NCBI RefSeq assembly: GCF_000427405.1 | Contig: NZ_KE386491.1 | Span: 1,037,001 to 1,101,000, forward strand | From: Flectobacillus major DSM 103 | GTDB taxonomy: Bacteria; Bacteroidota; Bacteroidia; Cytophagales; Spirosomataceae | Reading direction: 5' to 3' | Length of the DNA: 64,000 nt | Shown: in pieces, positions 16,482-19,923 of the stretch | Position numbering within the stretch: the first letter of the stretch is position 1 | Layout: each line of letters opens with the position of its first letter | Program-made: the position numbers and the translations under genes | The notes under the pieces: model-generated | What the model was told of the DNA's origin: nothing | What the model saw: only the letters and a program-made list of their open reading frames with translations | Databases searched by the model: none

Positions 16482-17441
16482 TTAAGCATTTTTACGTTCA
16501 ATAGCTTTTAGGGCTTTTTCAACGATATTAGCTGCATTTAAGCCGTATTTTTCCATTAATTGAGCTGGTGTTCCTGATTCACCGAATGAATCCTGTACGC
16601 CTACGTATTCTAATGGAACATAGTGGTGTTGTACCAACACCTGAGCAATAGAGTCGCCCAAGCCGCCATTTACTTGGTGTTCTTCAGCCGAAACCGCACA
16701 ACCAGTTTTTTTCACAGACGTTAAGACAGCCTCAATATCCAAAGGTTTAATGGTGTGGATATTGATAATTTCAGCATTTACACCTTTTTCGGCAAGGATT
16801 TCGCCAGCCAAGATTGCTTCCCAAACCAAGTGGCCTGTAGCAAAGATACTTACATCTGTACCTTCGTTTACCATCCAAGCTTTACCGATTTCAAATTTTT
16901 GATCGGCTGGCGTAAATACTGGTACAACTGGACGACCAAAACGAAGATAAACTGGCCCCTCGTAGTCGGCAACGGCAATAGTAGCTGCTTTAGTTTGATT
17001 GTAGTCGCAAGGGTTGATGACAGTCATACCCGGAAGCATTTTCATCAGGCCAATATCTTCCAAAATTTGGTGAGTAGCACCATCTTCGCCCAATGTTAAA
17101 CCAGCATGTGAACAAGCAATTTTAACATTTTTGTTGGAATATGCTACCGATTGACGAATTTGGTCATATACACGACCAGTACCAAAGTTAGCAAAGGTAG
17201 TAGCAAAAGGGATTTTTCCACCAATAGTAAGCCCTGCTGCAATACCAATCATGTTGGCTTCGGCAATACCTGTTTGGAAGAAACGTTCAGGATTTTCTTT
17301 AATAAAGGCATCTAATTTTAGAGAGCCAATCAAGTCAGCACAAAGAGCCACCACATTTGGGTGAGTCTGGCCTAAAGCCTGCATACCTGCTCCGAATCCA
17401 GAGCGAGTATCTTTTTTTTCTGTGAATGTATATTTTTTCAT
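16482..17441 (-). CDS. transketolase, C-terminal subunit
   Basis: The 319-residue protein is the pyrimidine-binding and C-terminal domain half of transketolase. It shows FFQTGIAEANMIGIAAGL with the catalytic Glu of the thiamine-activating motif, the ACSHAGLTLGEDGATHQ loop, and the C-terminal regulatory-like domain (FATGHLVWEAI, VSAEEHQVNGGLGDSI). Together with the N-terminal subunit it would transfer two-carbon ketol units in the non-oxidative pentose phosphate pathway. Split transketolases are common, but the halves are normally adjacent; here 1.6 kb with an ATPase gene and a broken gene separate them. It starts 10 bases after the broken gene, so all four are probably one transcript. Confidence 0.94.
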   Translation of the reverse strand: MKKYTFTEKKDTRSGFGAGMQALGQTHPNVVALCADLIGSLKLDAFIKENPERFFQTGIAEANMIGIAAGLTIGGKIPFATTFANFGTGRVYDQIRQSVAYSNKNVKIACSHAGLTLGEDGATHQILEDIGLMKMLPGMTVINPCDYNQTKAATIAVADYEGPVYLRFGRPVVPVFTPADQKFEIGKAWMVNEGTDVSIFATGHLVWEAILAGEILAEKGVNAEIINIHTIKPLDIEAVLTSVKKTGCAVSAEEHQVNGGLGDSIAQVLVQHHYVPLEYVGVQDSFGESGTPAQLMEKYGLNAANIVEKALKAIERKNA

Positions 17442-17451
17442 TTGCTTATTT

Positions 17452-18034
17452 TTACTCGATTGCTTTTATCGAGGCACATTGCTTTAATTTTGTTAAAAAA
17501 TAATTTGCACTAGGGCAATTGGTATGATTAGCTGCATTTTGAATGGAAAAACCTGCGTTTAGCATTTTTTGAGCGAGCTTTTTCTTTTCATTCCTGCCTA
17601 CAAGTCCTCTATTAAACTTCTCCAAATATTTACTTCGGATGGTTTCAAATGGAACATCTTCATTTTCAGGGTATTCAAATGAGAAATCTCCTTGAAAAAT
17701 CATATTCATTGTAGCACAATCTGATAAAAACCAAGACTCAATCTGCTTAACAGCAACGATAATAATTTGATTTTCAGATTCAGTAATCCTCAATCGAGTT
17801 TTTGTAATACATTGGTCTTGGTCAAGGTCTGTTAAAATAAAAATAACTGAGGCACTTTTTTGAAAAGATTCTCCCTATGACTTTTAATATTGTGGGGTAA
17901 TAAGTTTCCATTTCCTTGGACATTGATTACGCCAACAGAATGAAGTCCGAGTTGATTTAGAAGAGCCTTAAAAATACTGGATTCTAAAATAAAAACTCAG
18001 TATAACCTTCACAAATAAAACCAATATTTACCAT
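17452..18034 (-). pseudogene. TOPRIM/DUF4276-like protein gene with two frameshifts
   Basis: An ATG at 18034 opens MVNIGFICEGYTEF and then hits a stop at 17986-17984. Adding one base in or beside the T run at 17991-17995 continues the frame. A second single base is missing in the A run at 17856-17861 (minus strand). With both restored the protein is about 194 residues. It carries an N-terminal EGxTE motif (Glu9) and an ILTDLDQD strand (Asp70, Asp72), the acidic residues of a TOPRIM fold, then VAVKQIESWFLSD, which is typical of DUF4276/RloB-like proteins. The ATG overlaps the stop of the ATPase gene (ATGGTAA), so the two were one translational unit. Either the gene is decaying or the sequence lost homopolymer bases. 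Confidence 0.75.
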
Positions 18035-19011
18035 GGTAGCCCACCCCCTAAGGTATTAGTCAGCCATGCTTCATCCATACTTAAACCATTAAAATCTTCT
18101 CCTTTGAACTGCTTTATTTTTGTTTCACCCTTGATTTTATTTACCGTAATTATTTCATCAGGACTAAGTTGAGACACCAATGATTGCGAATGAGTGTTGA
18201 GCCATATATAATGACCTTTTTCTTCACAAGCATTTCTGAAAAAATTAACCATCTCTTTGATCACATCAGGAGTAAGTCCATTTTCAGGTTCTTCGATGCA
18301 CAAAAACTGAGGTTCATCAGATTGAAAAACGGCTGTAAGAAGAGCGAGAATATTATATGTGCCATCAGAGATTAAATTTTTAGGAAATGGCTTTTTGATA
18401 CCTTTTTCATAAATCAATAAAGTATCGGTATTACTTAAATAACTTGAGAAAACTTCAACTCTTTCAAAACCAGGTACAAATAAATCAAGCCATTCAGATA
18501 TTTCTTCCTTTTTAGATTCATCAAGTAAAATTCTTTTTAAAACTTTTTCGAGATTGTTTCCAGAAAATGAAAGTTTGTAACTATCTGAAAAATTAATTTT
18601 TTGTTTCTCTAAGTTCTTTAAAAACAGGCGACGAAATGAGTAACGAAAGTTTCCTTCTGTTATTCCTTCTTCTTCACTTGAGTCTCTAATTAGGTCATTC
18701 AGTTTTTCCGAAGGAATTATTTCGGTATTTGGATAGAATGATGTTGATTTGCTAAAATCAAAAAACTCATGAATAATTTCAATCTGACATTCTTTATCGG
18801 ATATGTCTCTTTTATTGATTTCCTCTTTTCCCCCAAACAAATGAACCTTATCCTCTATTGGTAAAGGGATAATAAAAAACTCCAACGCTTCAAAAATATT
18901 ACTTTTCCCTGAACCATTTGGGCCAACAAATACCGTAAAAGGATTAGGTTCAATGATTTCTAAATCTGCAATAGATTTAAAATTTTTGATATGTAATTTT
19001 TTGATTTTCAA
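18028..19011 (-). CDS. AAA/SMC-like ATPase (AAA_21 type), likely defence partner
   Basis: The 327-residue protein begins MKIKKLHIKNFKSIADLEI, as RecF/OLD-type ATPases do. It has Walker A GPNGSGKS (30-37), a signature-like SDGTYN (215-220), Walker B FLCIEEPENG (from 236) and a His switch in NTHSQSL (His274). There is no TOPRIM domain in the protein itself; it is supplied in trans by the overlapping downstream gene. Such two-gene pairs are known among phage-defence systems, for example PARIS AriA/AriB and AbiL, although those families are only distantly similar and I do not assign either. It lies between the two transketolase genes in the same direction. Confidence 0.85.
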   Translation of the reverse strand: MKIKKLHIKNFKSIADLEIIEPNPFTVFVGPNGSGKSNIFEALEFFIIPLPIEDKVHLFGGKEEINKRDISDKECQIEIIHEFFDFSKSTSFYPNTEIIPSEKLNDLIRDSSEEEGITEGNFRYSFRRLFLKNLEKQKINFSDSYKLSFSGNNLEKVLKRILLDESKKEEISEWLDLFVPGFERVEVFSSYLSNTDTLLIYEKGIKKPFPKNLISDGTYNILALLTAVFQSDEPQFLCIEEPENGLTPDVIKEMVNFFRNACEEKGHYIWLNTHSQSLVSQLSPDEIITVNKIKGETKIKQFKGEDFNGLSMDEAWLTNTLGGGLPW

Positions 19012-19034
19012 AGTGATAAAAGTTTAATATTCAC

Positions 19035-19065
19035 TCATTGAGTAAATCACCCATTCACTCAATGA
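19035..19065. repeat. perfect 9-bp inverted repeat at the ATPase/transketolase junction
   Basis: TCATTGAGT (19035-19043) and ACTCAATGA (19057-19065) flank a 13-base loop and end exactly at the stop codon of the N-terminal transketolase gene. ATTCACTCA also occurs twice as a direct repeat (from 19029 and from 19053). It could be an operator, a weak terminator, or a scar of the insertion that brought the ATPase pair. Confidence 0.6.
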
Positions 19066-19923
19066 TTAATAATCACCTAATGTTTCTGGAAGTTGAGCCA
19101 AAGCAGCTTCTAATTGTTCGTTGTTTGGAGCAACCCCGTGCCATTTGTGCGAACCCATCATGAAGTCGACACCAGCCCCCATTTCGGTAGTCATCAAAAT
19201 CATAATTGGTTGTCCGTTTCCAGAAAGTTCACGAGCTTCTGTTAATACTTTTACAACATCGGCCATATCGTTACCTTGCATTTTGATAACTTTCCAACCG
19301 AAAGCTTCGTATTTGGCACCCAAATCACGGTTGTTCATTACCTTGTCTGTAGGGCCGTCGATTTGCTGACCATTGTAGTCGATAACAGCTACTAAGTTGT
19401 CAACTTTGTGGTGAGGAGCATACATAGCTGCTTCCCAAACTTGCCCTTCGTTTTGTTCGCCATCGCCCATCAAAACAAATACCAAGCTATTGTCACCATT
19501 CAATTTTTTGGCTTGAGCAGCACCAATCGCTACCGACATTCCTTGGCCCAATGAACCCGAAGCAATACGAATACCTTCTAGGTGTTCGTGTGTAGTTGGG
19601 TGTCCTTGCAAGCGTGAGTTTAATTTACGGAATGTTGCTAGTTCAGCCACAGGGAAATATCCTGAGCGAGCAAGTACTGAATAAAATACAGGTGAAATAT
19701 GACCATTCGATAAGAAGAATAGGTCTTCACCGATACCATTCATATCAAAGATTTTTTTACCTGATTCGTCAGATTTAAGTGTCATTTGGTCAAAATAAAG
19801 ACCTACTAATAAGTCTGTACAACCCAATGAACCACCTGGGTGACCAGACTGGCACGCGTGAACTTGTCTCACAATGTCGCGTCTTACTTGTGAAGCAACT
19901 TTCTGTAATTCTGAAATTTCCAT
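19066..19923 (-). CDS. transketolase, N-terminal subunit
   Basis: The 285-residue protein is the thiamine-diphosphate pyrophosphate-binding half of transketolase. It shows HPGGSLGCTDLLVGLYFDQM near the start, GHISPVFYSVLARSGYF, ASGSLGQGMSVAIGAA, and the TPP/Mg motif from GDGEQNEGQVWEA to VIDYNGQQIDG. It pairs with the C-terminal subunit encoded at 16482. The two halves should be produced in equal amounts, but the intervening ATPase and broken gene now lie between them on the presumed transcript. A -7 box lies upstream at 19977-19984. Confidence 0.94.
   Translation of the reverse strand: MEISELQKVASQVRRDIVRQVHACQSGHPGGSLGCTDLLVGLYFDQMTLKSDESGKKIFDMNGIGEDLFFLSNGHISPVFYSVLARSGYFPVAELATFRKLNSRLQGHPTTHEHLEGIRIASGSLGQGMSVAIGAAQAKKLNGDNSLVFVLMGDGEQNEGQVWEAAMYAPHHKVDNLVAVIDYNGQQIDGPTDKVMNNRDLGAKYEAFGWKVIKMQGNDMADVVKVLTEARELSGNGQPIMILMTTEMGAGVDFMMGSHKWHGVAPNNEQLEAALAQLPETLGDY

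Follow-up and report, generated by a model that had tools for sequence, protein, structure and literature searches.

How does a gene pair that resembles a phage-defence system come to lie between the two halves of a central-metabolism enzyme, and what might it do there? The locus belongs to Flectobacillus major DSM 103 (NCBI RefSeq assembly GCF_000427405.1) and lies within a 64,000-nucleotide stretch of contig NZ_KE386491.1 (positions 1,037,001 to 1,101,000; hereafter, the window), in which a gene for an ATPase and a gene for a small TOPRIM-like protein separate the genes for the N-terminal and C-terminal subunits of a split transketolase (Tk; genes TkN and TkC). By analogy with PARIS (AriA/AriB), the pair is probably a sensor-effector defence module of the HEC-01 kind, the sensor cassette of which, a middle segment of the ATPase, would be reshuffled by recombination at the fixed split-transketolase site. 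An earlier reading of the window, made from its sequence (the sequence-only reading), had described the four-gene order and proposed a defence pair using a housekeeping operon as its site. The exchange of the ATPase cassette, the separate exchange of the TOPRIM gene, a hairpin ahead of the ATPase and the use of other operons as sites go beyond it.

A replaced segment in the ATPase

The ATPase gene and its segments are placed in the window as follows.

18028..19011, minus strand: ATPase gene, HEC-01A-like, 327 amino acids (aa), TTG start (PADLOC HEC-01A model PDLC04176, 3.8e-95)
18877..19011, minus strand: ATPase residues 1-45, a conserved arm that closes with the Walker A helix (GPNGSGKSNIFEALEF); residues 21-40 have a mean entropy of 0.12 bits
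18562..18876, minus strand: ATPase residues 46-150, a hypervariable segment subject to exchange, the proposed sensor lobe; in blocks of ten residues the mean entropy reaches 3.7 bits
18028..18561, minus strand: ATPase residues 151-327, the other conserved part, carrying Walker B (LCIEEPENGL) and a C-terminal PW

The family survey covered 222 genomes at an ATPase cut-off of E<=1e-60; all 72 matching stretches were inspected and the flanking genes were read from the sequence of each. Across these 72 ATPases, the mean entropy of 0.12 bits at residues 21-40 compares with 3.7 bits at residues 91-100. For instance, genomes G199 and G200 are 100% identical in the Tk genes, 98% in ATPase residues 1-45, 95-97% in residues 151-327 and 96-97% in the TOPRIM gene, with 18% identity in residues 46-150. 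In G001/G003 the middle is 22% identical, while ATPase residues 1-45 and 251-327 and the TOPRIM gene are 99-100% identical, and the middles of G206/G226, G100/G102 and G133/G141 stand at 31, 16 and 19%, so that the middles of five pairs, near-identical elsewhere in the locus, range from 16 to 31%. In 78 pairs the Tk identity is at least 93%, and in 73 of these no other of the six ATPase/TOPRIM segments is as dissimilar as residues 46-150. Clean swaps, defined as a middle below 35% with the other ATPase segments at 85% identity or more, are found in 8 pairs from 13 genomes. When clustered at 40% identity, the 72 middles form 57 clusters, and the other three ATPase segments form 1 each.

DNA identity was profiled in six pairs, picked for their differing middles. 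It drops to ~40% just past nt 120-135, where the Walker A helix ends, and rises again between nt 480 and 720; beyond the swapped segment it is mostly 90-100% in four of the six pairs and mostly 75-97% in G141/G133 and G213/G227. Judged by these alignments, near-identical loci differ by the replacement of ATPase residues ~46-150 as a whole, and homologous recombination would be the route of the exchange. The ratio of nonsynonymous to synonymous substitution rates (dN/dS) in the middles is 0.13-0.32 (six of seven pairs give a value, several near silent-site saturation), and therefore each cartridge is itself under purifying selection. Point hypermutation as the main cause was rejected on the values from these six pairs.

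As to the origin of the segments, the middle of the F. longus ATPase alone matches no Pfam family at E<=0.1. With the whole ATPase as the query, no silent cassette that could act as a donor was found in the F. major genome, which holds one full ATPase match and one weak match (26%, E 1e-8), the middle alone not having been searched there. Variable recognition segments in a conserved frame are likewise described, in the accessible parts of the sources, for type I restriction specificity subunits (PMC3077401) and for retroelement-diversified putative antigen sensors (PMC10907252). However, HsdS binds DNA, and diversification by a retroelement introduces point changes through reverse transcription, whereas whole segments are replaced here. 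At the level of abstracts, no description of this site and mode of evolution was found in the literature on hypervariable or exchanged defence parts. Two copies, L109 and L111 (G180 and G184), have a much longer middle, with ATPases of 413 and 418 aa.

Separate exchange of the TOPRIM gene

Comparison of similar middles indicates that the TOPRIM gene is exchanged separately from them. Middles are at least 50% identical in 13 pairs, both TOPRIM genes could be aligned in 8 of these, and TOPRIM residues 1-90 are less than 45% identical in 7 of the 8. In G100/G102b, the clearest case, the middles are identical and the TOPRIM proteins 39% identical (the two copies of G102, a draft bin, are on different contigs). 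Given Tk identity, the middle shows almost no correlation with the other segments (partial rank correlations of -0.12 to 0.17); the value between the TOPRIM halves is 0.50.

Trees were built from 59 of the 72 copies. Both Tk genes and a TOPRIM protein of at least 175 aa were required, and the F. major strain was left out. Genus changes number 13 (the minimum) for Tk, 20 for the ATPase arms, 23 for the ATPase tail, 25 and 23 for TOPRIM and 28 for the middle, against ~35 with shuffled labels; short alignments and poorly resolved branches add genus changes, and the order of these values weighs more than the exact numbers. As these trees read, the Tk tree follows genus exactly and the middle tree scarcely does, which favours exchange between genera.

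Relation to HEC-01 and other defence systems

In PADLOC-DB, the window ATPase matches HEC-01A with 317 bits in two stretches, the best at residues 128-327, and the 113-aa remainder of the window TOPRIM protein matches HEC-01B at 3.2e-26. All 49 TOPRIM relatives scanned match the HEC-01B model PDLC04191 (E<=1e-5), and in F. longus this match spans residues 1-187 of 194. The pair is an already catalogued candidate defence pair; the proposal of an undescribed family falls, as HEC-01 (HEC for hma-embedded candidate) was in PADLOC-DB in 2023. As in HEC-01, both proteins match its models and the genes are adjacent in the same order. HEC-01 calls for both genes to be adjacent and intact; in the window they are adjacent and the partner is frame-broken. 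For the Tk site, the cassette exchange and the upstream hairpin, no description concerning HEC-01 was found in the accessible literature. HEC-01 is listed among the systems detected in one strain (accessible part of PMC12724379). No functional study of HEC-01 or DUF4276 was found in a search without most subscription journals, and the literature on DUF4276, MADS, and transketolase with phage defence gave nothing useful.

The weaker matches of the window ATPase are AriA (5.1e-26), AbiLi (4.8e-26) and mad3 (4.3e-23). These scores agree with the earlier statement that the proteins are not close members of PARIS or AbiL, HEC-01A being the best match of the ATPase. Like PARIS, the pair combines an ABC-type ATPase with a separate TOPRIM protein and would likely work alike, with a sensor holding an effector. 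Unlike in PARIS, the effector is not DUF4435/AriB by profile, neither family being among those listed for the window fragment, three full-length relatives or the 49 relatives, and the ATPase is far nearer HEC-01A than AriA. PARIS is placed at a P4-like satellite hotspot in the accessible part of PMC9122126, in contrast to the metabolic operon here. AbiL (AbiLi/AbiLii) and MADS (mad3/mad4) also consist of an ATPase and a small partner, but their ATPases score weaker than HEC-01A; mad4 is matched by 1 of the 49 TOPRIM members, and AbiLii is not among the families listed for the window fragment or the 49 relatives. In OLD and Gabija GajA, ATPase and TOPRIM are in one chain, whereas here there are two genes, with an overlap of exactly 7 bases in 69 of the 72 family copies.

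Profile comparison with defence collections and related families, as the sequence-only reading had proposed, places both proteins in HEC-01, finds no DUF4435 among the families listed and leaves the suggested DUF4276 likeness borderline. Against Pfam DUF4276 (PF14103, gathering cut-off 30.2), three full-length members score 28.4, 29.5 and 31.4 bits and the window fragment scores 21.8 bits; OLD-like_TOPRIM (0.011) is below its cut-off.

The mean predicted local distance difference test (pLDDT) score of the ATPase model is 85.6, with a fall to ~50 within the exchanged lobe (residues 91-110). The model resembles PtuA (Septu and retrons) and Rad50, which stand at the top of the Protein Data Bank (PDB) list with template modeling scores by query length of 0.49-0.63 among the best 50 rows, and these are the closest solved folds. 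By sequence, the best solved relative is the OLD protein 6p74 (6.8e-10). The partner of PtuA is the HNH nuclease PtuB and that of Rad50 is Mre11, both of which differ from the TOPRIM partner here. The TOPRIM model (pLDDT 94.4) has its strands in the order expected, at residues 2-8, 31-38, 64-70 and 90-95, with E9 and D70 at strand ends. The TOPRIM fold has a glutamate after strand 1 and a DxD motif after strand 3, and family members follow this rule: E9 and D70 are present in 68 of 68, and position 72 is D in 59 and E in 9. A PDB sequence search with the TOPRIM alignment gave no useful match. The predicted TOPRIM fold of the partner rests on these motifs.

The split-transketolase site

The remaining features of the locus are the following.

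19066..19923, minus strand: TkN (transketolase N-terminal subunit gene), upstream neighbour (Transketolase_N 3.9e-46)
19035..19065, minus strand: hairpin between TkN stop and ATPase start, 13-nt arms with 5 nt between (inverted repeat I6, 92% complementary)
17452..~18034, minus strand: TOPRIM/DUF4276-like gene, HEC-01B-like, with two frame changes; open remainder 17452-17793 (from frames and the HEC-01B match)
16482..17441, minus strand: TkC (transketolase C-terminal subunit gene), downstream neighbour (Transket_pyr 1.1e-39, Transketolase_C 7.7e-27)

Open reading frames (ORFs) and profile matches, including AAA_21 (5.3e-24) and AAA_15 (1.1e-21) of Pfam for the ATPase, confirm the four-gene order and its spacings of 54 bases between TkN and ATPase and 10 bases between TOPRIM and TkC. 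As had been suggested, this layout would allow all four genes to be read from TkN, and the pair may be transcribed from the Tk promoter. Between 16400 and 20600, promoter predictions (11 found, 13.5 expected) and terminator predictions (4 found, 2.9 expected) are near chance. The closest named locus is that of F. longus LYT7W, the ATPase of which is 92% identical to the window's.

The ATPase is present in 71 of the 222 family genomes (72 copies) and in 64 of 181 high-quality ones. All 72 copies lie directly alongside TkN and/or TkC (TkN was detected in 69 of the stretches and TkC in 66, absent sides falling at contig ends), in line with the proposed housekeeping operon as a site. Internal stops are found in 0 of 72, 3 of which are cut by contig ends. 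The four-gene order is not shared by all relatives, as 151 of the 222 genomes have no ATPase match at the cut-off. In a sample of 30 TkN loci, TkN is followed directly by TkC in 21, 8 carry the pair (own genome included) and 1 ends before TkC. The earlier claim of an insertion holds to the extent that these 21 Tk pairs are uninterrupted, but the four-gene order is itself common. On this comparison the pair is an insertion relative to many relatives. For example, G002, of the same genus, has an uninterrupted Tk pair with 114 bases between, including the TkN stop codon. In G007, the first 45-59 ATPase codons alone remain between the Tk genes, a stub that reads as a deletion scar. In an order-level sample (390 genomes, E<=1e-45), 26 of the 27 matches are within the family; the one outside, G052, has the ATPase in pieces on a small contig. 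Transfer across orders was considered on account of L181, labelled Flavobacterium sp. SUN052, and rejected, since its neighbouring genes repeat the window's order; the label is probably wrong and the locus was not counted as another order.

The broken TOPRIM gene of F. major

The sequence-only reading described a single TOPRIM gene in the window, yet its EGxTE, DLDQD and QIESWF motifs sit in different frames. Reading from the expected start at 18034, in the stop region of the ATPase gene, EGYTE is the last motif before the frame breaks off; the part that follows continues in a second frame, and DLDQD through QIESWF in a third. The open piece is 113 aa long (17452-17793). The TOPRIM genes of relatives are mostly a single frame of 178-208 aa. 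The gene lies 3' of the ATPase in 71 of the 72 family copies, the remaining copy being at a contig end; among the 71 in view it is full-length in 67, broken in the window strain (G000) and G197, and altered in its tail in G027 and G179.

With its effector broken, the module of the window strain is probably inactive, provided that the frame changes are real. That they stem from sequencing or assembly, with the pair intact in the living strain, is possible but doubtful, and would be compatible with any of the readings weighed below. Short homopolymer runs near both frame changes point to such errors, as does the dN/dS of 0.08 of the adjoining ATPase against F. longus (residues 151-327). The assembly completeness of 99.99 speaks against them, as do the neighbouring genes: 11 of 16 F. 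longus ORFs match the window at >60% identity, and the 10 other than the TOPRIM gene are all single-frame, the TOPRIM gene alone being split.

Relatives in other operons

A search with the ATPase alignment gave 80 named loci. The pair is accompanied by Tk genes in 51 of them; in the other 29, several of which are on short contigs, the stretch examined contains no Tk gene. An FtcD-like gene lies downstream in 10 of the 29, with a HutI-like gene directly upstream in 4 of the 10, and pairs flanked in this way lie, by gene order, inside the histidine-degradation (hut) operon. Further pairs are found after ileS and a dksA-like gene (3), after lysA (2), after a lycopene cyclase gene (2) and before rmuC (2), the neighbour groups being BLAST clusters with one or two members of each named by NCBIfam. 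The nearest neighbour is on the strand of the pair in 21 of 25 cases upstream, 22 of 26 downstream and 15 of 22 on both sides, counts given without a chance control. From these positions, the habit of the pair seems to be living inside other operons.

For 11 E. coli plasmids, a relative with a full-length identity of 31.6% is listed next to pglX. Plasmid NZ_CP010234.1, the one that was read, has the pair inside a BREX-1 operon, with pglX on one side and pglZ on the other, each sharing one base with it; the 7-base overlap recurs, and the proteins match HEC-01A at 3.2e-182 and HEC-01B at 1.4e-99. TOPRIM-linked OLD-ABC pairs are described as backup effectors within BREX operons (accessible part of PMC12839542), and the E. 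coli relative is of that kind; there the host operon is itself a defence operon, whereas here it belongs to central metabolism. Phage and plasmid collections, which hold few records of this group, contain no relative closer than these 31.6%, and five viral contigs have matches of 29-31% identity.

Proposed mechanism and alternatives

In the proposed mechanism, the Rad50/OLD-type ATPase would hold the small TOPRIM-like putative nuclease inactive until a phage product binds the lobe of ATPase residues ~46-150. The bound ATPase would change state and free or activate the nuclease, which would stop the infected cell, as AriA/AriB does in PARIS, where AriA holds AriB until a phage protein binds (PMC11455837; accessible part of PMC12409363). 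It is by analogy with this holding of AriB that the exchanged lobe is proposed as the sensor and would determine what is sensed; nuclease action and a role in defence are likewise suggested by the analogy. The Walker A end could serve as recombination arm on one side, and the C-terminal half of the ATPase, the TOPRIM gene and TkC on the other, with homologous recombination bringing in a segment of unrelated sequence that comes from another strain; the TOPRIM gene would be exchangeable on its own. There is about an even chance that the locus acts as a cartridge-exchange innate-immune receptor, in which a fixed framework (Walker A arm, ATPase body and effector gene) is kept in a housekeeping operon, flanking genes provide the same arms in every strain, the species of a family draw on one large pool of unrelated sensor cartridges and of effectors, the two recombining independently, and specificity is swapped without a mobile element.

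Several observations weigh against a defence module with an exchangeable sensor. HEC-01 is itself only a candidate system, a defence module fixed at one site is unusual, and the copy in the window strain is broken. Only one of the three full-length members tested passes the DUF4276 cut-off and a Foldseek search of the PDB with the TOPRIM model gave no match at E<=0.001; the case for nuclease action therefore comes from the motif and the order of strands. The middle might have a role other than sensing, such as adjusting the effector or the oligomer. Exchange can reach beyond residues 46-150, since in G001/G003 residues 151-250 are also down to 73%. At 90% identity, the other ATPase segments form 7, 55 (151-250) and 47 (251-327) clusters; by this measure they evolve too, but far less than the middle. 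The correlation between ATPase residues 251-327 and TOPRIM residues 1-90 is only moderate (0.35), and empty Tk gaps, used as a control for the hairpin, fold at z < -2 in 6 of 15 cases (median -1.8).

The same anatomy, an ATPase holding a toxic nuclease with alleles exchanged between strains, would be expected if the pair served self/non-self or anti-mobile-element discrimination, or addiction as a toxin-antitoxin pair, the variable segment telling strains, plasmids or a cognate partner apart and the TOPRIM protein being the toxin; PARIS itself is classed among toxin-antitoxin systems (PMC11455837). This is rather unlikely given the relative inside a BREX-1 operon, a phage-defence setting. Addiction pairs, moreover, are typical of mobile elements, whereas every family copy is beside Tk genes and the phage and plasmid collections, few as their records of the group are, hold nothing closer than the E. 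coli relative. Defence is favoured by the HEC-01A and HEC-01B profiles and by the relatives beside pglX of BREX-1.

The fixed site in all 72 family copies and the hairpin next to TkN could also suit a pair that serves pentose-phosphate metabolism, as a partner of transketolase in regulation or repair, and stays in the operon on that account. The lack of an ATPase match in most family genomes, the relatives in hut, ileS-dksA and BREX operons, the cassette exchange and the scar in G007 make this the least probable of the explanations. It is scarcely more probable that the pair is a fast-evolving insertion of minor function and on its way out, with the variable segment a tolerant surface. The TOPRIM genes broken in the window and G197 or altered in their tails in G027 and G179, together with the ATPase scar, are what such decay would leave, but the ATPase is stop-free in all 72 copies, dN/dS is well below 1 in middles and arms (several pairs near saturation), and drift would not leave closely similar DNA flanking a segment at 40% identity.

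In many ATPase-nuclease defence pairs the part that senses the invader is not known, and here allele pairs that are near-identical but for 80-110 residues, some in named cultured strains, would make the sensing part directly testable. Examples are Runella zeae DSM 19591 (G200) and Runella sp. MFBS21 (G199), matched by coordinates and differing in residues 46-150, and F. longus LYT7W (G001) and Flectobacillus sp. BAB-3569 (G003), between which the difference runs from residue 46 to ~240. The operon site suggests immune diversification by plain homologous recombination, without integrases, as well as defence genes that scans for defence islands could miss.

The gap between TkN and the ATPase

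The 57-nt gap of the window (TkN stop codon included) folds at z = -4.9. Among 45 TkN-ATPase gaps of 30-200 nt, leaving out Uma2 carriers with long gaps and very short gaps, 33 fold at z < -2 (median -4.8), and in two gaps the run of consecutive pairs exceeds 40; the control gaps mentioned above are 15 empty ones of 30-250 nt. Hairpin sequences vary between lineages. The word GTAGAGACG, counted on either strand, occurs 17 times in 10,191 nt of TkN-ATPase gaps, against 14 times in the other 566,181 nt of the named loci concerned; the latter DNA is mostly coding, so that enrichment over intergenic DNA is smaller. The hairpin may shield or terminate the TkN message, or it may adjust how strongly the pair is expressed.

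A Uma2-family gene (PF05685, 8.2e-33 for L143) lies between TkN and the ATPase in 13 of the 72 copies (G004, G010, G034, G097, G117, G133, G141, G151, G191, G192, G194, G199 and G200; e.g., L117:2255-2836), and is the sole gene separating the Tk genes in G143 and G149. In G199/G200, DNA identity is also low (63-72%) ~300-420 nt 5' of the ATPase start, within this gene.

Some genomes hold a second Tk locus. Among the matches listed, two TkN matches (E<=1e-65) are found in 13 of 222 genomes, 12 of which carry the pair (e.g., G097 C6, G237 C1:6042553 and G240 C3); since a single genus accounts for 9 of the 13, the link to the pair is confounded by kinship. The three second TkN copies L114-L116 are all uninterrupted. 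In G237, the TkC match of the pair-bearing copy (L095:4028-4974) is in two pieces of different identity, and the matches of the second Tk pair (L114) are unbroken.

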